A DNA stretch of 64,000 nt from Arcobacter sp. LA11 (GCF_001895145.1 NZ_BDIR01000004.1:1-64000), one strand, 5' to 3'. Shown: positions 13,617-61,940, numbered from the stretch's first letter. The notes: generated by a model from the sequence alone, not told the origin. Made by a program: numbers and translations.

Positions 13617-14876
13617 ATGATTTTAGCAAGTGGAATTTTTATTATTACACTTATTTTTGTGATTTGGCAACCACGAGATTTACAAATAGGAACAACAGCA
13701 GTAATTGGAGCAATTGTTGCGCTAATTGCTGGAGTTGTAAGTTTTTCAGATGTCCTGATTGTAACAGATATAGTTTGGGATGCAACTCTATCTTTTATAG
13801 GAATTATTATTTTATCTATGGTTTTAGATGAAATAGGCTTTTTTGAATGGGCAGCTCTTAAAATGGCAAAGTTCTCAAATGGTGATGGTTTGAGGATGTT
13901 TGTTTATTCTATTTTATTAGGAGCGTTTGTTTCAGCTTTATTTGCAAATGATGGTGCAGCACTAATATTAACACCAATTTTACTTGCTAAAATGAGAATA
14001 TTAAATTTAAATATGAAGTCAATTATTGCTTTTTTATTAGCAGGTGGTTTTATTTCTGATAGTGCATCTTTACCACTTGTATTTTCAAATCTTACAAATA
14101 TTGTAACTGCAAACTATTTTAATATAGGATTTGCAGATTATATTTCAAATATGATTATTCCATATATTGTTAGTGTATTTGCATCAATTGTTTTTTTATG
14201 GCTAATATTAAGAAAAGACATTCCAAAAAAAGTTGATATTTCTTTATTAAAAGAGCCAGAAAGTGCAATTAAAAATAAAACACTGTTTAATATATCTTGG
14301 GTATTTTTAGCTGTACTACTTGCCGGATATTTTGTAGGAGATGCATATGATTTACCTGTTGCTGTATTTGCACTTGGTGGTGGAGTTTTATTTTTAGTTA
14401 TTGCAACACTATTTAAAACAGTAGAGCCTGTACATATTATAAAAGAGGCACCTTGGCAAGTTGTTTGGTTTAGTATTGGATTATATATAGTTGTATATGG
14501 ATTAAAAAATGCAGGACTTACAGACTATTTAACAATTATATTAAAAGATCTAGCTACACGTGGGGATACAGTTGCAATAATTGGAACAGGATTCTTATCA
14601 GCCTTTTTATCAGCAATTATGAATAATATGCCAACAGTTATGATTATGGATATTGCTCTTGATAATATGGGTGATATACCAAATCAAACCTTAGCTTATG
14701 CAAATATTATTGGATGTAACTTAGGTCCTAAAATGACGCCATTTGGTTCTTTAGCAACTCTTCTATGGCTTCATGTTTTAGCTAAGAAAGGTGTAAATAT
14801 TTCATTTGCACAATATAGTAAATTTGGTTTAATTATAACACCGCCTGTGTTATTAATTGTGTTATTAGCATTATAA
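13617..14876 (+). CDS. arsB: Arsenite efflux permease ArsB
   Basis: A polytopic inner-membrane protein of 419 residues in the ion transporter superfamily (ArsB/NhaD type), with about 11-12 hydrophobic helices. The conserved loop segments FANDGAALILTPILL and the C-terminal NNMPTVMIM/GCNLGPKMTPFGSLATL are present. The family exports As(OH)3 or antimonite using the proton gradient. An AAAAGGAAAA ribosome site precedes the ATG. It is followed by arsC after 22 bases. Assignment to ArsB rather than another family member rests on the flanking arsR and arsC. Confidence 0.9.
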   Translation: MILASGIFIITLIFVIWQPRDLQIGTTAVIGAIVALIAGVVSFSDVLIVTDIVWDATLSFIGIIILSMVLDEIGFFEWAALKMAKFSNGDGLRMFVYSILLGAFVSALFANDGAALILTPILLAKMRILNLNMKSIIAFLLAGGFISDSASLPLVFSNLTNIVTANYFNIGFADYISNMIIPYIVSVFASIVFLWLILRKDIPKKVDISLLKEPESAIKNKTLFNISWVFLAVLLAGYFVGDAYDLPVAVFALGGGVLFLVIATLFKTVEPVHIIKEAPWQVVWFSIGLYIVVYGLKNAGLTDYLTIILKDLATRGDTVAIIGTGFLSAFLSAIMNNMPTVMIMDIALDNMGDIPNQTLAYANIIGCNLGPKMTPFGSLATLLWLHVLAKKGVNISFAQYSKFGLIITPPVLLIVLLAL

Positions 14877-14898: not shown

Positions 14899-15327
14899 AT
14901 GAATGAAAATGGAATTTTACCTGAAGATAAAAAAGTTTTAATTTTATGTACAGGGAATAGTTGTAGAAGTATTATCGCTGAAGCTCAAATCAATGCTTTT
15001 ATTGATGGTGTAAGTAGCCATAGTAGTGGTGTAAAAGCTAGTGGAAGAGTAAATTTAAATGCTAAAAAACTATTAGAACAAAAAAAGATTTGGAAAGATG
15101 AATATCATTCAAAAACTATTGATAAAGTAATAGATAATGAATATGATTTAGTAATAACAGTTTGTGATAATGCTAATGAAACTTGTCCAATGTTTCCTAA
15201 AGCTACAAAGGTTATTCACGTAGGTTTTGAAGATCCTGATGGAAAAGAGTTTGATGCATTTTTAAATACATATGATGAAATATATGAAACTTTATTACCA
15301 AGAGTTAAAGAAGAATTAGGTTTATAA
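14899..15327 (+). CDS. arsC: Arsenate reductase, thioredoxin-coupled LMW-phosphatase type
   Basis: A 142-residue enzyme reducing arsenate to arsenite for export. The P-loop C-x5-R is CTGNSCR (C17 to R23). The relay cysteines are C89 and C96 in the segment TVCDNANETCP. This is the Staphylococcus/Bacillus type, unrelated in fold to the glutaredoxin-type ArsC family at 52751-53092. Its stop shares one base with the next start (TAATG). The mini-thioredoxin at 16299 in the same operon could be an electron donor; that is inference. Confidence 0.94.
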   Translation: MNENGILPEDKKVLILCTGNSCRSIIAEAQINAFIDGVSSHSSGVKASGRVNLNAKKLLEQKKIWKDEYHSKTIDKVIDNEYDLVITVCDNANETCPMFPKATKVIHVGFEDPDGKEFDAFLNTYDEIYETLLPRVKEELGL

Positions 15328-16286
15328 TGTTTATCTATTGGGAAAAATTTGTTGACTATTTGATTTACAGTTTAATAGGGCTAGATAAAACAACTCACTT
15401 AGCACAATCAATTCATTTTTTTATTTATGACACTGTAAAAATCTTTATTTTACTTATTGGTATTATTTATTTAGTAACATTTTTAAGAAGTTATTTCCCT
15501 GTTGAAAAAATAAGAGATTACTTGCAAGGGAAACATAAACTTTTAGGACATATCTTTGCGGCATTTTTTGGTATTCTAACACCTTTTTGTTCATGTAGTG
15601 CTATTCCACTTTTCTTAGGGTTTTTACAAGCTAGAATTCCTTTAGGAGTAACTTTTTCTTATTTAATATCTGCACCTTTAAGTGATGCAGTTGTAATTGC
15701 ACTTCTTTTTTCTCTTTTTGGATATAAAATTACTTTATTATACATAGGGTGTACATTATTAATAGCAATTGTTGCAGGTTTAATAATAGGAAGTTTAGAT
15801 CTAGAAAAAGAAGTATTAATAGATATAAAACCATCTTCTTGTTGTGGAAATAATACAAATGAAAAGAATAGTTTTAAAAATCATTTAAACGAAGCGTGGG
15901 AAGGAACAAAAGATATCTTTAATAAGATTTACCTTTATGTAATTGTAGGTATTGCAATAGGTGCATTTATTCATGGATATGTCCCTGCTGAAACGATTGC
16001 ACATTATGCAGGAGGTAACTCTTGGTATGCACCTTTAATCGGTGTAGTTATGGGAATACCAATGTATTCAAGTGCCGCAGGAATGATTCCTCTTATAGAA
16101 GTACTTACTTCAAAAGGAATGTTATTAGGAACTGCTTTATCATTTATGATGGCAGTAGTAGCCCTAAGTTTACCAGAAGCTATGATTTTAAAAAGGGTAA
16201 TGTCTTTAAAATTAATAAGTATATTTTTTGGTATAGTAGGAAGTGCTATTTTATTAGTAGGTTATATTTTTAACGCAATTTTATAA
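15327..16286 (+). CDS. ArsP-type permease (DUF318)
   Basis: A 319-residue membrane protein with about eight helices in two halves separated by a hydrophilic loop. The signature TPFCSCSAIP carries C88 and C90, and the second half has GIPMYSSAAGMIPL. Members include Campylobacter ArsP, which exports trivalent organoarsenicals, but other members have other or unknown cargo. The central loop has an extra SSCCG cysteine pair near residue 172 that could bind metalloid. Translational coupling to arsC supports an arsenic role. The gene name arsP is not assigned because the cargo is unproven. Confidence 0.82.
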   Translation: MFIYWEKFVDYLIYSLIGLDKTTHLAQSIHFFIYDTVKIFILLIGIIYLVTFLRSYFPVEKIRDYLQGKHKLLGHIFAAFFGILTPFCSCSAIPLFLGFLQARIPLGVTFSYLISAPLSDAVVIALLFSLFGYKITLLYIGCTLLIAIVAGLIIGSLDLEKEVLIDIKPSSCCGNNTNEKNSFKNHLNEAWEGTKDIFNKIYLYVIVGIAIGAFIHGYVPAETIAHYAGGNSWYAPLIGVVMGIPMYSSAAGMIPLIEVLTSKGMLLGTALSFMMAVVALSLPEAMILKRVMSLKLISIFFGIVGSAILLVGYIFNAIL

Positions 16287-19247: not shown

Positions 19248-22200
19248 ATGGAAAAGTTATCAAATTTATTAGTAATAAAATTAGCATTTTTATTTGTAGT
19301 GTTTTGTAATGCAGTTGTAGATGTATCTCATAAAGTACTTTTACAAAATATTGCATTTAAAATTTTTGATGGAAGTGAACAAGTAGTATGGATATCTATT
19401 ATCAATGCAATGATAATTATTCCTTTTTTACTGTTATTTACTGTAAGTGGATATTTATCAGATAAATATAATAAAAAAGATATTTTAGTTTATGGTGCTG
19501 TGTCATCATTTATTTTATCTGTTCTTATGATATTTTCATATCTTTCTGGAAACTTCTATTTAACAATGTTTAACTTAATATTACTTGCTGTTCAAAGTGC
19601 TATATATTCTCCTGCAAAATTTGGAATTATTTTAGATGTTTGGGGGAAAAAGAATTTAGCAAAGGGAAATTCAGCACTTCAATCCGTATCTATTATTGCA
19701 ATTTTATTTGCAATTGCAAGTGGATCTTTAATTTTTGAAAATTTTTATGATGCAAATAATTTAAGTGTTTTAACTACAAAAGAGGCTTTACTTGATGCAA
19801 TATTACCTTTGACATATTATATTGTTCCTGTGGCATTTTTAGAAATGTTAGTTTCTATTTTTGTTTTAAAGAAATTAAAAACTTCATATAACTCAAACGA
19901 TAAGCTTGAATTAGATAAAAAAGAATTAATGAAAGGAAAACTTTTAGGTAAAAATATTAAAACAATTTATTCAAATAATATCATCTTTTTATCTGTAATT
20001 GGCTTATCAGTTTTTTGGGCAATATCTCAAGGTCTTATGGCAGTTTTTCCATCTTTTGCAAAACAGTATTTAGGAATAAATGATGTCTTTGTTATAAATG
20101 GTGTGATTGCAGCTTCAGGTATTGGTATTGCTATTGGTTCAATTATTTATTCAAGAATATCAAAACACTATATAGAAATAGGAACTATTCCTTTAGCAGC
20201 TATTGGTATGGCAGTTATGATTTATATCTCGACAGTAGTACAGAGTGCATTTTTACTTGGAGCTACATTTTTAGTCTTTGGTATTTTTGGTGGTTTATTT
20301 GTAGTTCCCTTGAATTCACTTATTCAATTTAATGCAAAGAAAAAGATACTAGGTACAGTTTTAGCAGGAAATAATTGGTTTCATTCTTTAGCAATGTTTG
20401 CTATGCTAATGCTTACAACTGTTGTTTCTCTTTTAAACTTAGACCCACAAAATACAATTTATTTAATTTTGTTAATAACTCTTGGAGGAACTTTATATAC
20501 GATTTATAAACTTCCTCAATCTTTGATTTTATTATTTTTAAAGTTTGTTGTTGGAATGAAATATAATTTAGAAGTTCAAGGAGTAAAAAATATCCCAACT
20601 TCTGGCGGAGTGTTATTACTTGGGAATCACGTATCTTGGATTGATTGGGCAGTAATTTTAATGAGTAGTCCCAGAGAAGTTAAATTTGTAATGCATAAAC
20701 CAATATATGATAAATGGTTTTTAACTTGGATTTTAAAAATATTTAAAGCAATTCCCATATCAAATGCTTCAAGTAAGTCAACACTTCAAACTATTGCTAA
20801 AGAGTTGGATGAAGGTAATATGGTTGTATTATTTCCAGAAGGAAGTATTACAAGAAATGGTCATATGGGTGAGTTTAAAAAAGGTTTTGAGAAGATTTTA
20901 GAACTTACTAACAATGATGTTAAAGTTGTATCTTTTTATATCAGAGGCTTATGGGAATCTATGTTTAGCAGGGCTAATAAAAAATTTAAACAATCGTATA
21001 GAACAAACAGTGTTACTGTATCTTTTTCAAAACCGATTAATAAACAAAAAGCAAATACATTTGTTGTGAAAAATGAAGTAGTAAGATTATCAACCGAGTC
21101 TTGGAATGAACATATTAAAAATTTAGATACATTGAGTAATACAATTTTTGATAGACTAAAAGAGGTTGGTACAAATTTTATATTTGCAGATTCAACAGGT
21201 TTAGAACTATCAGGAAATAAGTTTTTAACAGTATCTATTTTATTTAAAAATTTATTGAAATCAAGGGTTAAGGGTCAAAATGTAGGATTGTTACTTCCTT
21301 CAACCGCAGCAGGAGCTTTTATAAATTATTCAGTACTTATGATGGGAAAAACAGCTGTAAATTTAAATTATACAGCTGAGATAAACTCTTTAAAAATGGC
21401 AGTAGAAAAGGCTGAAATAAAAACGATTGTAGCTTCTAAAAAATTTATTGATAAACTTGAAGGAAAAGGAATAAATATAGATGAACTTTTACAAAAAGTT
21501 GATGTGATATATGTGGAAGACTTAAAACCACTTATATCAAAAGTATCAGGGTTATTAACTTTATTAAGTGTTAAATTTATTCCTAGTTTTTTATTAAAAA
21601 CTATTCATATAAAGAAAATAAAAAAAGATGATACAGTGCTTATTTTATTTTCTTCTGGAAGTGAAGGGACTCCTAAAGGTGTGGAACTTACAAGTGATAA
21701 TATCTTAGGAAACACTCAACAAATAGCAGGTGTTTTAAATGCTAATGAAAATGATATTATAGTTGGTTCTCTTCCTATTTTTCATGCTTTTGGTATTACT
21801 GTTACTACTTTTTTACCTTTAATTGAAGGAATTAAATGTGTTGCTCATCCAGACCCAACTGATGGAGTTGGACTTGGGAAACTTGTTTCAAAATATAAAG
21901 CGACTATTATGTGTGGGACATCTACATTTTTTAGACTGTATACAAAAAATTCTAAGGTTCACCCTTTGATGTTTGAATCACTTAGATTTACAGTTGCAGG
22001 GGCTGAAAAATTAAGAGAAGATGTAAGAGCAGAATTTAAAAAGAAGTTTGGAAAAGATATTTTAGAAGGGTATGGAGTTACTGAGACTACTCCTGTTGCT
22101 TCTTGTAATTTACCAAATATGCTAGCTCCTGATTTTACAGTTCAAGTTGGAAGCAAGCAAGGTACAATTGGTATGCCTCTTCCTGGAACTATTGTAAAGA

Positions 22201-22730
22201 TTGTAGACCCTGAAACTTTTGATGAACTTGAATCAGGACAAGAAGGAATGATAGTTGTTTCGGGAATTCAAGTTATGAAAGGTTACTTAAAAGATGACGA
22301 AAAGACTAAATCTGTTTTAAAAGAGATTGATGGACATACTTTTTATATAACAGGAGATAAAGGAAGAGTTGATAGTGATGGTTTTATTACTATTGTAGAT
22401 AGATATTCAAGATTTGCAAAACTTGGTGGAGAAATGGTGAGTCTTGGTGCAATTGAAGAGAAGATTACGAAACTTATTTTAAATGATGAAGAGAGTGAAG
22501 TCGATTTTGTAGCTACATCATTACCTGATGAAAAAAAAGGTGAAAAAGTAATTTTACTTATTTCTGGAGCAAATGAAGAGTTTATTGAAAATCTAAAAAA
22601 TGAGATGGTAAAAACTTTTGATAATAAATTGATGATTCCAAGTTTAATTAAAATAGTTGATGAGGTTCCCAAACTTGGAACTGGTAAAAAGGATTTTAAA
22701 GGAGCTAAAGCTTTAGCTCAAAGTTTATAG
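19248..22730 (+). CDS. Fused LplT transporter, PlsC acyltransferase and acyl-ACP synthetase
   Basis: A 1160-residue protein with three parts. Residues 1-415 are a 12-helix major facilitator like lysophospholipid flippase LplT. Residues about 430-600 are a PlsC acyltransferase with HVSWID (H461) and FPEG (529-532). Residues about 640-1150 are an AMP-forming synthetase with SSGSEGTPKG (near 802), YGVTETTP and a TGDKG motif. In E. coli LplT and Aas are separate proteins that import and re-acylate lysophospholipids; here both jobs are joined. It should act at the inner membrane. It is the last gene of the MerR unit and faces glnD. Confidence 0.9.
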   Translation: MEKLSNLLVIKLAFLFVVFCNAVVDVSHKVLLQNIAFKIFDGSEQVVWISIINAMIIIPFLLLFTVSGYLSDKYNKKDILVYGAVSSFILSVLMIFSYLSGNFYLTMFNLILLAVQSAIYSPAKFGIILDVWGKKNLAKGNSALQSVSIIAILFAIASGSLIFENFYDANNLSVLTTKEALLDAILPLTYYIVPVAFLEMLVSIFVLKKLKTSYNSNDKLELDKKELMKGKLLGKNIKTIYSNNIIFLSVIGLSVFWAISQGLMAVFPSFAKQYLGINDVFVINGVIAASGIGIAIGSIIYSRISKHYIEIGTIPLAAIGMAVMIYISTVVQSAFLLGATFLVFGIFGGLFVVPLNSLIQFNAKKKILGTVLAGNNWFHSLAMFAMLMLTTVVSLLNLDPQNTIYLILLITLGGTLYTIYKLPQSLILLFLKFVVGMKYNLEVQGVKNIPTSGGVLLLGNHVSWIDWAVILMSSPREVKFVMHKPIYDKWFLTWILKIFKAIPISNASSKSTLQTIAKELDEGNMVVLFPEGSITRNGHMGEFKKGFEKILELTNNDVKVVSFYIRGLWESMFSRANKKFKQSYRTNSVTVSFSKPINKQKANTFVVKNEVVRLSTESWNEHIKNLDTLSNTIFDRLKEVGTNFIFADSTGLELSGNKFLTVSILFKNLLKSRVKGQNVGLLLPSTAAGAFINYSVLMMGKTAVNLNYTAEINSLKMAVEKAEIKTIVASKKFIDKLEGKGINIDELLQKVDVIYVEDLKPLISKVSGLLTLLSVKFIPSFLLKTIHIKKIKKDDTVLILFSSGSEGTPKGVELTSDNILGNTQQIAGVLNANENDIIVGSLPIFHAFGITVTTFLPLIEGIKCVAHPDPTDGVGLGKLVSKYKATIMCGTSTFFRLYTKNSKVHPLMFESLRFTVAGAEKLREDVRAEFKKKFGKDILEGYGVTETTPVASCNLPNMLAPDFTVQVGSKQGTIGMPLPGTIVKIVDPETFDELESGQEGMIVVSGIQVMKGYLKDDEKTKSVLKEIDGHTFYITGDKGRVDSDGFITIVDRYSRFAKLGGEMVSLGAIEEKITKLILNDEESEVDFVATSLPDEKKGEKVILLISGANEEFIENLKNEMVKTFDNKLMIPSLIKIVDEVPKLGTGKKDFKGAKALAQSL

Positions 22731-55363: not shown

Positions 55364-56839
55364 ATGAAAAGAATATTATTTGTTATTTTTATACTATCTT
55401 CAACTGTCTTTTCTAGAGAGTTAGTACTTACCTTAGATGAAGCCATAGACTTAGCTCTAAAAAATAATGCTTTAAATAGAATCTCAAAACTTAATTTAGA
55501 AATTGCAAATGCTCAATATCAACAAGCTCTTAGTTCAAATTATCCAAGTTTAGATGCAGTTTTTTATGCTTCAAGAGATAAAAATGATACAATTTTTCAA
55601 CAAAGAGGAGTTTTTACTTTATCTTCTGATTTGACAAAAACTTTGGCTTTAGCAAATACTTTAAATATTCCAGAAGATGCTCCCGGTATATTGACTACTA
55701 GAACAGCTACTCAGGCTGTAATTTCAGGAACACCATCTAGTTCTTTTCCTAGTGGTGAAATCAGTGCAGATATTGATACCAAAGCAAAAGGCCGAGATAC
55801 TGCAAGAGGTCAATTAGAATTAAATTATCCTATTTACACAGGTGGAAAGTTATCTGCAATAATTGAGCAAGCTAGATTAAACAAAAGCATTATGAAACAA
55901 TCAATTGTAAGAGATGAAAATAGTATAGTATTTGATGTTAAAAAGTATTATTATGGGTATGTTTTAACAAGTGAATTATCAAAATTAGTAAATAAAATTT
56001 ATGATAATATGAAATTTAGTACTGAACTAGCAAAAGAATTTTTAGAAAATGGTAGTGATTTGAAAATCAATAAAACAGATTATTTAAATGCAAAATTAAC
56101 TACTTCTCTTATTCAATCTACATTAGCCAAGATTGAATTAAATAAAAAAATGCTTGAAGGTGCAATTTCAAATTTAGTAGGTTTAAAATATAGTGATAAT
56201 TTGAAAATAGTTTATGATAATCAAAGTATTTTAAAGCAAAATAAGTCATTGCAAGAGTTAATTAAAAAGTCATATGATTTAAACCCTGATATGAATAGTA
56301 TAAATCTTGCATTAAAAATTAAAAAGCAACAAATCAAAGAGGCAGATTCAAATAACTATCCTATGGTAAATTTATTTGGAAATGTAAGTAAGACTTATAA
56401 TTCATATGAGTATGGATACTTAAATGAAGACAATGAAAACTCGTGGAGTATCGGTGTCGCATTGAAATTGTCTCTTTTTGATGGTTTTAAAACGAAAAAT
56501 AAAGTTATAGAGAAAAAGATAGATAAAAAAATTGTTGAAGAGCAAAAGGTTCTTTTAGAAGAGGGATTAGCTCTACAGCTTAAAAATGAGTTTATAAAAA
56601 GTTCAATTGGATATAAACAAATTGAAATATTAAAAGATGCAGTTAAAACAGCTAGTGAAAATAGTAGAATGAATTTTAAAGGATTTCAGTATGAAATGAT
56701 TGAAGCAAAAGAGTTAATTCAATCACAACTTATTGAAGTATATGTGAAAGCAGATCATTTAAAATATATTCATGATTATTTAGTATCTTTAGCTACCATT
56801 GATAAATTAGTTGGTACCAAAATAGATGAGAAATTTTAA
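55364..56839 (+). CDS. TolC-family outer-membrane channel protein
   Basis: A 491-residue outer-membrane efflux protein with signal peptide (MKRILFVIFILSSTVFS) and two long helical repeats: LTLDEAIDLALKNNALNR near residue 23 and a second repeat from about residue 300 (LIKKSYDLNPDMNSINLAL). The family forms trimeric channels for type I secretion or drug efflux. No inner-membrane pump or adaptor follows; instead it heads an operon of binding proteins and a kinase. Its end overlaps the next gene by 14 bases. Confidence 0.88.
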   Translation: MKRILFVIFILSSTVFSRELVLTLDEAIDLALKNNALNRISKLNLEIANAQYQQALSSNYPSLDAVFYASRDKNDTIFQQRGVFTLSSDLTKTLALANTLNIPEDAPGILTTRTATQAVISGTPSSSFPSGEISADIDTKAKGRDTARGQLELNYPIYTGGKLSAIIEQARLNKSIMKQSIVRDENSIVFDVKKYYYGYVLTSELSKLVNKIYDNMKFSTELAKEFLENGSDLKINKTDYLNAKLTTSLIQSTLAKIELNKKMLEGAISNLVGLKYSDNLKIVYDNQSILKQNKSLQELIKKSYDLNPDMNSINLALKIKKQQIKEADSNNYPMVNLFGNVSKTYNSYEYGYLNEDNENSWSIGVALKLSLFDGFKTKNKVIEKKIDKKIVEEQKVLLEEGLALQLKNEFIKSSIGYKQIEILKDAVKTASENSRMNFKGFQYEMIEAKELIQSQLIEVYVKADHLKYIHDYLVSLATIDKLVGTKIDEKF

Positions 56840-57716
56840 ATATTTATATATCATATTATTTTTAGCTCTTTCTTTAAATGCCGTGAATAAGGATTTAACA
56901 AAAGAGTATTACTTTGGTGTAGCAATAAATAAATTTAATAAAGCCAATCAAAATCGAATAAAATATTTACTTCTTAGACTTACGAATGAAATGCAAAGTT
57001 TGTATAAAGCAAAGATAAACATTGTATTTATAGAAAATGACAAGGATTTGTTAAAAGATTTTCAATCATTTAATAAAATGAATGCAATGGTAGTTTATAC
57101 AAACTTTTATTTACAAAATAAAGAAGAGTTAAAAAAAGTATCAATGAATCCATTTTTATTTAATAGTGCTAGCCAAGAGAAAAACCAATACTATTTAATA
57201 GCAAATAAAGAATCAAATATAAAAACAGTAAAAGATTTAAAAAATAAGACCTATGCAGGCTATGTTGCAGATGATGGATATGAGGTATGGTTAGATTATA
57301 TAGTTAGAAAAGAATTAAACACTTCTATTGAAAATATTATTAAAGAAAAAAATATAAAACAAAAAAACAAAAAGCTACTTTTAGATGTCTACTTTAATAA
57401 ATCAGATTTTACAGTTGTATCAAAAGTAGTATATAACGATATGCTTTTATTAAATCCTGCAATAGAAAAAAATACAGTAATAATAGAAAAGTCAGAACCA
57501 ATTTTCTTTTTTGGTTTAGGTTTATTTCATAAAAATACTCCTAAAGAGCTTGTTGAAGACTTCTTTAAAATAGTAGATAATGGGGATTTTAATAGAAAGT
57601 TTAAAGAATTATTTCTAATATTAAATTTATACGGCTTACAAAAAACATCTTTTGAAGATTTAAGAAGTTTAGATACTTACTATGATGAATATAATAGATT
57701 AAAAAAGAGTAACTAA
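56826..57716 (+). CDS. PhnD-like periplasmic binding protein, paralog 1
   Basis: A 296-residue protein with signal peptide (MRNFKYLYIILFLALSLNA) and a type 2 periplasmic-binding fold: YYFGVAINKFNK strand, YYLIANKESNIKTVKDLKNKTYAG hinge region and DVYFNKSDFTVVSK. Related to phosphonate-binding PhnD proteins. It shares the tail motif KSEPIFFFGLGLFHK with the three later paralogs but is the most diverged of the four. Next to the kinase by one base. Ligand unknown. Confidence 0.75.
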   Translation: MRNFKYLYIILFLALSLNAVNKDLTKEYYFGVAINKFNKANQNRIKYLLLRLTNEMQSLYKAKINIVFIENDKDLLKDFQSFNKMNAMVVYTNFYLQNKEELKKVSMNPFLFNSASQEKNQYYLIANKESNIKTVKDLKNKTYAGYVADDGYEVWLDYIVRKELNTSIENIIKEKNIKQKNKKLLLDVYFNKSDFTVVSKVVYNDMLLLNPAIEKNTVIIEKSEPIFFFGLGLFHKNTPKELVEDFFKIVDNGDFNRKFKELFLILNLYGLQKTSFEDLRSLDTYYDEYNRLKKSN

Positions 57717-57717
57717 A

Positions 57718-59319
57718 ATGTTTTTTAATAGGGATACGATTTTTGGGAAAATATTTAAAGTTTTATTTCTTGCGATAATCTCATTCTCAACAATATTTGC
57801 AGTCTATTTTATCTCTAATCAAAAAGATCAGATTTTAAGATCTCTTAAATTAGAAGCCCATAGTATTGCAAAAATGCTTACATATGCTTCTTCTGATGCT
57901 ATTGTTTTAGATGATGGTGCTTTTTTAGTGGAATTTAATTATGAGTTTATGAAAGAAAATGATAGTTTAAAAGCTTTAATTATTTCTAAGCTTGATAAAA
58001 CCAGTTACATAATAAGAAAAGATGGTTGGGCTTTTGAAAATAAGATAGATAAAATATTTTTAAATGGAGAAAAAAAAGAGGTTACGTCACGAATAATTTT
58101 ATCTCCAATTAGTAATGAAAATATTTTTCATTATGTTTTCCCTATTGAGTTTTCTGGAACACATTGGGGTTGGCTACATTTAAATATGTCTTTAGATAAT
58201 TATAATAAAAAGATTTCTAATATGTATCTAGAGTTTTTTACATTTTTTATAATTTTATTATTGTTATCTATGATTGTATCTTATATTGTTGCGAAGAATT
58301 TTTCAAATCCTATTATAAGATTGAATAAAGTTGCAAATAGGATATCAAGAGGACATTTAGAATTAAGAAGTGATTACAAAAGTAGTGATGAAATAGGTCA
58401 ACTTTCGGACTCTTTTAATAAAATGATTTCTAAAATTGAAGAATCTCAAGCTGAGTTAAGAACTTCCCATGAAGACCTTGAACAAAGAGTTAAAGAGAGA
58501 ACTTTAGAATTATATGAAGCAAATAGAAAATTACAAGATAATAGTGTTGAGTTAGAAGAATTGAATATAAATCTTGATAAAAAGGTTAAAGACGAAGTAG
58601 AGAAAAGAACTAAACAAGAAGGGCTTTTAATTCAACAATCAAGACTTGCAGCCATGGGTGAAATGCTTGGAAATATTGCACATCAATGGAGACAACCACT
58701 TTCTGTAGTAACAACAGCTGCCACAGGTATAAAAGTAGAAAAAGAGTTTGGCTTATCAAATGAAAAAGCTGAGGTTGAAAAATTAGATACTATTATTAAA
58801 ACATCTAACTTTTTATCAAATACTATAGAAGATTTTAGTAACTTTTTTAAACCAAATAAAAATAAAGTTGATTTTAGTATAGAAGAGAGAGTTGAACAAT
58901 CTTTAGAATTAGTAAGTGCAAGTTTAAATTTCAATCATATATGTGTAAAAAGAGAATATAGTGAAATTGATAAAGTTTATGGTTTTCCAAATGAATATTC
59001 ACAAGCAATTTTAAATATTTTAACAAATGCAAAAGATGTAATTGTTGAAAATAGAATTAAAGAACCTCTAATAAAAATAAAAACATATAAAAAGAACAAA
59101 AAAGGCTATTTAGAGATTGAAGATAATGCAGGTGGAATAAAAAGTAAAGTTTTAGAAAAAATATTTGATCCTTATTTTACAACAAAACATCAAAGTCAAG
59201 GTACAGGGATTGGTTTATATATGTCAAAGATGATTATTGAACAAAATATGAATGGAAAACTAGAAGCTAAAAACGGAAAAAATGGAGCGATATTTATTAT
59301 ATCTATTCCTATTATTTAA
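57718..59319 (+). CDS. Sensor histidine kinase with HAMP domain
   Basis: A 533-residue kinase. Helix 1 lies near 12-32, a periplasmic domain at 33-165, helix 2 at about 170-192, HAMP at 190-245, a coiled coil to about 310, then the phosphoacceptor segment GEMLGNIAHQWRQPLSVV (His322) and an ATPase domain with NAKDVI, EDNAGGI and GTGIGLYMSK. No receiver domain or response regulator is encoded next to it. Placement among four binding proteins suggests they bring ligands to its periplasmic domain. Confidence 0.88.
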   Translation: MFFNRDTIFGKIFKVLFLAIISFSTIFAVYFISNQKDQILRSLKLEAHSIAKMLTYASSDAIVLDDGAFLVEFNYEFMKENDSLKALIISKLDKTSYIIRKDGWAFENKIDKIFLNGEKKEVTSRIILSPISNENIFHYVFPIEFSGTHWGWLHLNMSLDNYNKKISNMYLEFFTFFIILLLLSMIVSYIVAKNFSNPIIRLNKVANRISRGHLELRSDYKSSDEIGQLSDSFNKMISKIEESQAELRTSHEDLEQRVKERTLELYEANRKLQDNSVELEELNINLDKKVKDEVEKRTKQEGLLIQQSRLAAMGEMLGNIAHQWRQPLSVVTTAATGIKVEKEFGLSNEKAEVEKLDTIIKTSNFLSNTIEDFSNFFKPNKNKVDFSIEERVEQSLELVSASLNFNHICVKREYSEIDKVYGFPNEYSQAILNILTNAKDVIVENRIKEPLIKIKTYKKNKKGYLEIEDNAGGIKSKVLEKIFDPYFTTKHQSQGTGIGLYMSKMIIEQNMNGKLEAKNGKNGAIFIISIPII

Positions 59320-59327
59320 GAAGAGAA

Positions 59328-60209
59328 ATGAATTATAAATTATTTTTTATTGTATTTTTATTTACTGTTAGTGTTTTTGCTGATGACAAAAAAGTAAATA
59401 TTGGTGTTTTATATGAAAAAATATTTACTACAAAAAAAGAAGCTCAAATAGGGGCAAAAATTTGGCTTAAATATATGGAAAAAAAGCCTTACTTTGAAGG
59501 TGTAAATGTAATACTCTATGAAGATGAAAAACTTATTATTGATGATTATATTAATAATAAAATAGGAGGAATGATATCAAATCTTACTCTTTATTTTAAA
59601 AATAAAAATGATTTAGATAAAGCAAGTAGAAGAAGATGGATTCCTTCAACTACAAAAGAGATATATGAACAGTATTATTTAATAAAACATAAAGATTCAT
59701 CTGTAACTTTAGATAATCTAGAACAAAAAAGTGTTTTTTATAAAAATGATATAGGTAAAGTATGGCTAGAGTCTGTAATCTTAAAAAAATATAAGAAACC
59801 CTTAGAAAAAGTTTTTAAAAAAGTTCTTGAGATAAAAAAGCCTCAACAGTTAATTTTTAATGTGTTTTTTAATAAAAATGAGTTGTCTGTAATTCCTAAA
59901 AAACTTTATGATTCTATGCTTGAGTTAAATCCTCAAATAAGACAAAAAATCAAAATAATATCAAAATCAGAACCTATATTTTTTTCTGGAATAGGTTTTA
60001 CACATAATAAACTAGATGAAAAATATTTTTTAATGTTAGATGAAATGACAAATGATATTAATAGTTCAGAAAACGGTTTAGAACTGATTTCTCTTATTGA
60101 TTTAGTTAGGGTTAAAGTTGTCAATAATAAGGATTTTGAAGATTTAACAATTTTTTATGAAGAGTATTTTAGATTAAAAGAACTATATGGTAAAAAGGAA
60201 CAAAAATGA
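59328..60209 (+). CDS. PhnD-like periplasmic binding protein, paralog 2
   Basis: A 293-residue exported protein (signal MNYKLFFIVFLFTVSVFA). Shared motifs with paralogs 3 and 4: KIFTTKKEAQIGAKIWLKYM near the N-terminus, FNVFFNKNELSVIPKKLYDSML, and LNPQIRQKIKIISKSEP then FFSGIGFTH. These lie where binding proteins have hinge strands and the ligand pocket. Ends with a four-base ATGA overlap with the next gene. Confidence 0.75.
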   Translation: MNYKLFFIVFLFTVSVFADDKKVNIGVLYEKIFTTKKEAQIGAKIWLKYMEKKPYFEGVNVILYEDEKLIIDDYINNKIGGMISNLTLYFKNKNDLDKASRRRWIPSTTKEIYEQYYLIKHKDSSVTLDNLEQKSVFYKNDIGKVWLESVILKKYKKPLEKVFKKVLEIKKPQQLIFNVFFNKNELSVIPKKLYDSMLELNPQIRQKIKIISKSEPIFFSGIGFTHNKLDEKYFLMLDEMTNDINSSENGLELISLIDLVRVKVVNNKDFEDLTIFYEEYFRLKELYGKKEQK

Positions 60210-61066
60210 AACTATTTATAGTATTTATTCTTTTTATTGTTTCTTCAATATCTTTATTTGCAAATGAAGAGAAATTAAAAATTGGGATTATGTATGAAAA
60301 GTTGTTTACAACAAAAAAAGAGGCAAAAATAGGCTCAGAACTTTGGTTGAAACAAATGCAAGAAAAAGATAAAAACTTTAAACTAGAGATGATATTTTAT
60401 AAAGATGAGAAGAGATTGCTTGATGATTATATAAATAAAAAGATTTCTGTTATAGTTTCTAATGCTATTTCATATTATGAAAATAAAAAAATTATAGATA
60501 GTTTTTCAAATCATAAATGGGTAATGAGCCTATCTGAAGGAATATTTGATAAGTTTTATTTAATAAAAAATAGAGAGTTGAAATTTGATTTAGAAAGTTT
60601 GAAAAACAAAAAAATATATTATAAAAATGAAATGGCTAAAATTTGGCTTGATTCTTTGATATTTAAAGAAAAAAAGAAATCTATTATTAAAAAGTATACA
60701 AAAATTGAAAAAGCAAATAAGTTGATTTTCAATATATTCTTTAATAAAAATGAGTTATCTATAATTTCAAAAGATACTTATGAATCAATGCTAGAATTAA
60801 ATCCCCAAATTAAACAAAAAATTGAAATAGTGAGTGAATCTGAAGCAATGTTTTTTGATGGCATTGGATTTACGAGAAAAGATATATGTTCTGAGTTTGA
60901 AAAGATGTTAGAATTAATGAGAATAAAACTTGTAAAAAAAGAGAAAGAGTTTGATGTATTATCTTTTGTAGATATTCAAAAAGTGTATATTTTAAAAAAT
61001 AATGATTTAGATAAATTAGATAGATTTTATAAAGATTATTCTAATCTTAAAAAGATTTACAAATAA
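60206..61066 (+). CDS. PhnD-like periplasmic binding protein, paralog 3
   Basis: A 286-residue exported protein (signal MKLFIVFILFIVSSISLFA). It keeps KLFTTKKEAKIGSELWLKQM, FNIFFNKNELSIISKDTYESML and SEAMFFDGIGFTRK, with Ala-Met in place of Pro-Ile in the last motif, a change likely at or near the pocket. Translationally coupled to paralog 2. Confidence 0.75.
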   Translation: MKLFIVFILFIVSSISLFANEEKLKIGIMYEKLFTTKKEAKIGSELWLKQMQEKDKNFKLEMIFYKDEKRLLDDYINKKISVIVSNAISYYENKKIIDSFSNHKWVMSLSEGIFDKFYLIKNRELKFDLESLKNKKIYYKNEMAKIWLDSLIFKEKKKSIIKKYTKIEKANKLIFNIFFNKNELSIISKDTYESMLELNPQIKQKIEIVSESEAMFFDGIGFTRKDICSEFEKMLELMRIKLVKKEKEFDVLSFVDIQKVYILKNNDLDKLDRFYKDYSNLKKIYK

Positions 61067-61076
61067 GGAGGAAAAT

Positions 61077-61940
61077 ATGAGGTTATTAAATATTATTATC
61101 ATTTTTTTCCTTTTTTCTAATATTTTAAATGCAAAAGAAAATAGTAGTTATATAGGAATACTATCTGAAAAAATTTTTACTACTCAAAAAGAAGCTAAGA
61201 TTGCTGCAAAAATTTGGACAAAGTATATGTCTGAAATAGGTTATGAAAATGTTTTTATCAAATTTTATGATGATGAAAATGTATTGATTGCTGACTACCT
61301 TAACAATAAAGTAAGCACAATATTAGGTACATATCAAATGTATTATAAAAATAAAAGTATTATAGATAATGTTTCAAAAAGGAGATGGATACCAACTATT
61401 TCTAAAAATACATTTGAGCAATTTTATTTGATTAAAAATGTAGATTCTGAAATAACTATTAATAATTTAAATAATAAGATATTAAATTACAAAGATAATA
61501 TTGGAAAAATTTGGCTTGATTCTATTATTATGAGTAAATATAAGAAAAGTGTATCTAAGGTATTTAGCGAAATTATTGATATAAAGAAACCCCAGAAACT
61601 TATATTTAATGTATTTTTTAATAAAAATCAACTCTCTGTAGTCTCTAAAAAACTTTATGATGATATGATTGAATTGAATCCTCAAATAAAAAATAAAATA
61701 GAGATATTAGAAAAATCTAAAATTACATTTATTTCAGGAATAGGTTTTACTAGTAAAAAAATTAATCCATACTATGATGATATGCTTAAAAATATAAGAA
61801 AAGATATAGACAAAAAAGGGATTATTAAACTATCTCCTTCTATAAATATTTATGAGTTTTATGATATATCAAATGAAGAGTTAAAACCACTAGATAGTTT
61901 TTTTAGTTTCTATTTAAATTTAAAAAGAAAATATAATTAA
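61077..61940 (+). CDS. PhnD-like periplasmic binding protein, paralog 4
   Basis: A 287-residue exported protein (signal MRLLNIIIIFFLFSNILNA). It keeps KIFTTQKEAKIAAKIWTKYM, FNVFFNKNQLSVVSKKLYDDM and FISGIGFTSK; Lys-Ile-Thr replaces Glu-Pro-Ile in the last motif. AAGGAGG lies before the ATG, the strongest ribosome site in the operon. Last gene of the unit. Confidence 0.75.
   Translation: MRLLNIIIIFFLFSNILNAKENSSYIGILSEKIFTTQKEAKIAAKIWTKYMSEIGYENVFIKFYDDENVLIADYLNNKVSTILGTYQMYYKNKSIIDNVSKRRWIPTISKNTFEQFYLIKNVDSEITINNLNNKILNYKDNIGKIWLDSIIMSKYKKSVSKVFSEIIDIKKPQKLIFNVFFNKNQLSVVSKKLYDDMIELNPQIKNKIEILEKSKITFISGIGFTSKKINPYYDDMLKNIRKDIDKKGIIKLSPSINIYEFYDISNEELKPLDSFFSFYLNLKRKYN

Follow-up and report, generated by a model that had tools for sequence, protein, structure and literature searches.

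Histidine kinases fed by periplasmic solute-binding proteins (SBPs) are already known. XAC2383 and XAC2382 of Xanthomonas citri reportedly form a pair of periplasmic receptor and diguanylate cyclase (said to be the work of Teixeira et al. in 2018). This pair also consists of a PhnD-fold receptor and a membrane signalling protein with no transporter, the target being a diguanylate cyclase rather than a kinase, and is not known to include TolC. In the arsenic oxyanion-sensing systems AioX-AioS-AioR, ArrX and ArxX, a stand-alone PhnD-fold protein is encoded beside a histidine kinase: ArrX and AioX act with histidine kinases as sensors, and the oxyanion pocket of AioX-type sensors involves Ser161, Ser163, His192 and Cys106 (PMC5908839). 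The kinases AgtS and AruS of Pseudomonas aeruginosa have been proposed to be activated by adjacently encoded SBPs (PMC11113362); they are not known to involve tandem paralogous PhnD-like SBPs on one kinase, or TolC. Here, we describe an operon of Arcobacter sp. LA11, contained in a stretch of 64,000 nucleotides (GCF_001895145.1, NZ_BDIR01000004.1:1-64000; hereafter the window), which probably encodes a sensory system rather than a transporter: a sensor kinase fed by SBPs, with an obligate partner of the TolC family and an exchangeable output.

The operon occupies 55364-61940 and consists of six plus-strand open reading frames (ORFs) separated by -14, 1, 8, -4 and 10 bases, just as a sequence-only reading of the window had claimed when it described six overlapping or closely spaced genes:

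55364..56839, + strand: 491-aa outer-membrane protein of the TolC family, from a module-specific subfamily (OEP, PF02321, 2.7e-35)
56826..57716, + strand: SBP1, PhnD-like periplasmic binding protein, conserved copy preceding the kinase gene (PF12974, 1.2e-9; SBP1 clade in the tree)
57718..59319, + strand: membrane sensor histidine kinase (HK) with HAMP, HisKA and HATPase_c by Pfam and an A-type core
59328..60209, + strand: SBP2, PhnD-like binding protein (PF12974, 7.6e-8; AlphaFold2 model)
60206..61066, + strand: SBP3, paralogue of SBP2 (44%; PF12974 below the cut-off, E 0.039)
61077..61940, + strand: SBP4, paralogue of SBP2 (47%; no Pfam match)

The same reading had placed four PhnD-like proteins around a HAMP kinase, and Pfam and paralogy agree with it, one SBP lying upstream of the kinase and three downstream. 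SBP2-4 are mutually 44-47% identical and SBP1 is about 30% identical to them; the assignment of SBP3 and SBP4 to the family is safe because of their identity to SBP2. Upstream, the neighbour of the operon is tgt on the minus strand; downstream, a gene for a TrkA_C-domain protein is followed by an aminotransferase gene. No permease, ATPase, adaptor or response regulator is encoded in the operon or its neighbour genes. Compared with the nearest described systems, the operon shares with the AioX/ArrX type a stand-alone SBP beside a kinase without a transporter. However, Aio and Arr systems have one SBP per kinase, a linked Aio-type regulator and an oxyanion pocket, whereas the window set has several SBPs, no linked regulator, pocket residues that are apparently not kept, and a TolC partner. 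The linked permease and ATPase of a PhnD-type ABC importer are absent, and the OEP domain of a tripartite efflux outer-membrane component is present.

Of 104 Arcobacteraceae genomes, 30 contain relatives of SBP2; to survey gene neighbourhoods, surroundings of up to 20 kb were fetched around these relatives and the ORFs were labelled. The site of the window operon (locus A), bordered by tgt and the TrkA_C gene, has the order TolC - SBP1 - HK, and SBP1 lies directly upstream of HK in most relatives at this site. The number of SBPs after the kinase varies from none (L074, L080, L082, L085) through one (L053, L054, L055, L056) and two (L057) to the three of the window; L056 lacks SBP1, and genome G066 has two SBPs ahead of the kinase. 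Because the arrangement is conserved in relatives, it is not due to chance. At a second common site (locus B), between genes read from their sequences as ftsH and leuA, an SBP and HK are followed by a REC-PAS-GGDEF regulator and often by REC-PAS-HD-GYP regulators. Altogether, an SBP adjoins HK in about 30 loci, never with an ABC permease or ATPase of their own set. Such a survey had been suggested along with the sequence-only reading, and the association with importer genes that would have told against that reading did not appear.

How tightly are these parts bound to each other? In profile searches, the TolC subfamily was found in 27 of the 104 Arcobacteraceae genomes, all 27 of which also carry the SBP subfamily, and 74 genomes have neither (Fisher 6e-22, uncorrected for kinship). 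The profile of the HK sensor domain matches 26 of the 27 TolC genomes, the exception (G088) being a fragmented assembly; genomes with the SBP only (G065, G096, G098) carry short remnants or pieces with stops. Class-wide, 11 of 397 genomes, one of them from another family (G453), yield the strong matches of TolC, SBP and HK sensor alike, and the next-best matches reach at most 148 bits for TolC and 43 for SBP. The co-occurrence is not explained by linkage, because it holds in ten genomes whose parts are dispersed over at least two sites (G036, G041, G042, G083, G090, G091, G092, G093, G094 and G099), among which TolC-SBP, TolC-HK and SBP-HK pairs are all seen. Presence and absence of the three parts also covary within genera g1, g2 and g15. 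In G083, the TolC and HK genes, 1.8 Mb apart, are both broken by identical insertion sequences whose 454-aa transposase (L092 11350-12714 and L209 5393-6757) has about 27 full copies genome-wide; by a rough estimate, the chance of both insertions is of the order of 1 in 1000 to 1 in 4000. The TolC, SBP and sensor-domain subfamilies are a conserved transporter-free unit.

The TolC protein of the window belongs to the same fold family as other outer-membrane efflux proteins, keeping both OEP repeats and an ordinary TolC length, but differs from them in having no adaptor or pump nearby and in belonging to a private subfamily tied to SBPs and HK. This protein shares 30-75% identity with its counterparts at other SBP-HK loci, and the TolC proteins encoded at the module sites (locus A, L088, L094, L070/L086, and, from another family, L181) have one another as nearest relatives. 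The other TolC-like proteins of its own genome that were compared score at most about 60 bits against them and adjoin large transporter-sized ORFs. The subfamily is single-copy in each of the 27 genomes, in two pieces in G083 and with an extra fragment in G095. No adaptor or pump was seen beside TolC in the relative loci read, and any such partners may act in trans. A pattern scan of 84,980 genomes with TolC, in which the SBPs were not used, revealed no TolC relative in a genome demonstrably without SBPs (L205-L207 compared). The sequence-only reading had suggested TolC-mediated export under the control of the kinase: the link to TolC is stronger than that reading could have known, being near-perfect even where the genes are unlinked, but export itself is unproven, since there is no linked pump and the role of TolC might instead lie in entry or sensing.

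The four SBPs form one private PhnD-like subfamily, of which the genome has only these four copies, all in this operon. The motif NVFFNKNELSV of SBP2, quoted in the sequence-only reading, is confirmed and appears as NIFFNKNELSI, NVFFNKNQLSV and DVYFNKSDFTV in the other three; so is the variable stretch, SEPIFF in SBP1 and SBP2, SEAMFF in SBP3 and SKITFI in SBP4. In the SBP tree, the SBP1 clade, encoded upstream of HK at locus A, is separate from the SBP2-4 clade, the closest kin of which include single SBPs of genus g18, a genus with one kinase, where they are dispersed over the chromosome; some of these g18 copies are found near tctCBA, hut genes or sucCD. An SBP copy of G059 scores higher to SBP3 than to SBP2 or SBP4; therefore the split among the three is not recent. 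Solitary members of the family (L060 9262-10125, L066 9116-9976, L069 9092-9988, L072 7907-8668 and L076 9477-10364) lie beside a tungstate-like ABC operon (L060), tctCBA, sucCD, hut genes and acnB. A guess at the ligand from these neighbours, though suggestive, was set aside as weak, since other copies adjoin gyrB or sit between ftsH and leuA.

Genomes with the module carry one TolC channel, one or two kinases and one to five SBPs. The window has an SBP to HK ratio of 4:1, as does G089; the ratio is 3:1 in G087 and 2:1 in G059 and G086. About a dozen genomes have more SBPs than kinases, and among the genomes counted none has fewer. For 28 neighbouring pairs, SBP distances and HK-sensor distances correlate (r 0.71 with a permutation p of 0.0002, and a partial correlation of 0.46 controlling for the kinase core), which fits co-inheritance as well as contact. 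Sensing by several SBPs, as the sequence-only reading proposed, is likely, and we infer with fair confidence that the kinase responds to SBPs carrying ligand and that several of them serve each kinase; that they present differing ligands is a suggestion only.

An AlphaFold2 model of SBP2, built with 10 sequences (pLDDT 82.5), has the PhnD fold and most closely resembles ArrX (Z 20.4) and AioX (Z 18.6), with HtxB, PtxB, PhnD and XAC2383 (structures 5ub3, 5ub7) nearly tied. In a profile alignment to PtxB, itself weak (E 0.015), non-Ser and non-His residues stand at STSS and GAH, so that the oxyanion Ser/His ligands are, with moderate confidence, not kept. The same alignment places the stretch SEPIFF/SEAMFF/SKITFI close to the cleft. 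The idea that the paralogues differ at likely pocket residues is thus a reasonable one, while a pocket role for these residues and a distinct ligand for each SBP are suggested rather than established.

The kinase has the order transmembrane segment, periplasmic domain (about 60-158), transmembrane segment, HAMP, the phosphoacceptor helices (DHp, with His322) and HATPase. The periplasmic part is an alpha/beta domain between two long helices, read as the transmembrane segments; in a fold search with the sensor domain, the matches listed were kinase cores. The DHp helices are of two kinds, a B-type, HQWRQPLNALGL, and the A-type of the window, HQWRQPLS.ITTAASGIK. By counts made by hand from locus listings, c-di-GMP regulators (GGDEF or HD-GYP) adjoin the kinase in about 20 of 22 B-type loci, and a private response regulator stands beside the A-type kinase in none of 13. 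The absence of a regulator, put forward in the sequence-only reading together with that of permease, ATPase and adaptor, therefore holds for the window but is not general, as in relatives REC-GGDEF or REC-HD-GYP proteins adjoin a kinase with another kind of core. A tree of kinase cores separates A from B once and the tree of sensor domains requires two changes; therefore, the pairing of sensor domain and core changed at least twice. Carrying the c-di-GMP output over to the window kinase is unsafe, because the DHp type differs.

Several other arrangements of PhnD-like proteins and signalling proteins were met in the survey. A more distant kinase with a similar DHp, in G011 and G010, goes with an ordinary PhnD protein and with an OmpR-type regulator at a distance of about 2.4 kb, which is no more than a hint. 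The layout SBP - HK - sigma54-type response regulator, like that of AioXSR, was seen at L184 7088-11033 and L185 7294-10987, the sigma54-type regulator being found only with this different SBP-HK. In another Campylobacterota family, two PhnD-like SBPs flank one GGDEF protein, a diguanylate cyclase (L182 5481-8599 and L186 4899-8020). A REC protein whose C-terminal half has no Pfam family lies between an HD-GYP regulator and a second large kinase at L064 13464-14366, and similarly in L068 and L094. A natural SBP-HK fusion in G449 (L178) was discarded as an ordinary PhnD-PAS-kinase hybrid outside this subfamily.

The gene content, the co-occurrence of the parts, their domains and fold, the numbers of paralogues and the exchange of outputs are observations; the process that we propose on their basis is as follows. 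Periplasmic ligands would be caught by the PhnD-fold SBP1-4. By analogy with AioX/ArrX-type proteins, the ligand-bound SBPs would dock on the kinase at its small periplasmic domain and set kinase autophosphorylation at His322, and the phosphate would pass to a response regulator presumably encoded elsewhere. Through its paralogous SBPs, one kinase could sum several chemicals. The dedicated TolC would be a fixed third part, either a port for sensed compounds into or out of the periplasm or a member of the sensing complex. The input unit of SBP, sensor domain and TolC is conserved; kinase core and regulator are exchangeable, c-di-GMP enzymes serving in some relatives. A bolder version, which we put forward only tentatively, is a trans-envelope sensor, in which TolC would be an integral non-efflux part admitting or presenting outside chemicals to exchangeable SBPs on one kinase, with outputs swapped in evolution between c-di-GMP and other regulators.

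What else could such an operon be? PhnD-fold SBPs mostly serve ABC importers, and the genome has other PF12974 proteins outside this subfamily, so the SBPs might feed an ABC transporter encoded elsewhere, kinase and TolC being passengers. The solitary SBP relative behind the ABC operon of L060 points the same way, but that operon possesses a binding protein of its own; moreover, the lack of own importer genes in all of the roughly 30 SBP-HK loci, and the occurrence of the SBP subfamily with this TolC and HK sensor while most Arcobacteraceae genomes lack it, make this reading improbable. Redundancy of the paralogues for a single ligand fits their shared clade and the conserved motif positions common to all of them. 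It is nonetheless rather unlikely, given an identity of only 44-47%, the old split indicated by the G059 copy and the differing residues near the cleft.

Two further explanations concern TolC. It might work in export with a pump encoded elsewhere, the SBPs gauging the exported compound or a self-made signal in the periplasm and the kinase tuning export or behaviour. TolC-family channels normally work with pumps, this one co-occurs with SBPs, and pairing in trans is conceivable, as other TolCs of the genome stand beside transporter-sized ORFs; yet adaptor and pump are linked in no locus read and the subfamily is distinct from all other TolCs of the genome, so we regard such feedback-controlled export as possible but not probable. 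Alternatively, TolC might not transport at all but serve in the outer membrane as a sensor, or as a docking element, within a trans-envelope complex of SBP and HK. Obligate single-copy co-occurrence, even when unlinked, and the absence of adaptor genes from the loci favour this, but both OEP repeats and the ordinary length are retained and we know of no precedent, which leaves it doubtful.

Several points weigh against the SBP-fed sensory system itself. A search for the regulator of the window kinase, made in its own genome by similarity to the regulators of relatives, gave no clear orthologue, the best being 44-47% identical over REC only. The evidence for contact between SBP and HK, namely co-occurrence and distance correlation, is indirect; the co-occurrence counts and the Mantel test ignore shared ancestry, and the profiles derive from module members, A4 and A5 from sequences in the vicinity of SBPs. 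The transporter SBPs PtxB and PhnD match the fold of SBP2 at nearly equal Z, and orphan SBPs may have acquired different roles.

Elsewhere in the window, a giant 3559-aa protein is encoded at the contig start (38-10717), with seven DUF5801 repeats, VWA and Laminin_G_3; it is probably a secreted adhesin. The TolC protein was considered as its secretion partner, and no link was found. The window also has an ArsB gene (13617-14876), a gene for an ArsP_1 permease (15327-16286) and, at 19248-22730, a gene for a 1160-aa fusion with MFS, acyltransferase and AMP-binding domains.

As the sequence-only reading supposed, no description of a combination of TolC, kinase and multiple SBPs was found in the open-access literature searched; this is weak evidence of novelty, subscription papers being mostly outside the search. 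To our knowledge, no kinase has been described that several paralogous SBPs serve, nor one that occurs inseparably with a TolC-family protein throughout a bacterial family. If the proposal is true, TolC-family proteins would gain a role in signal input, and the operon would provide an example of the integration of many receptors by one kinase. It would also explain why many 'phosphonate-binding' annotations in relatives of Arcobacter come without a transporter.

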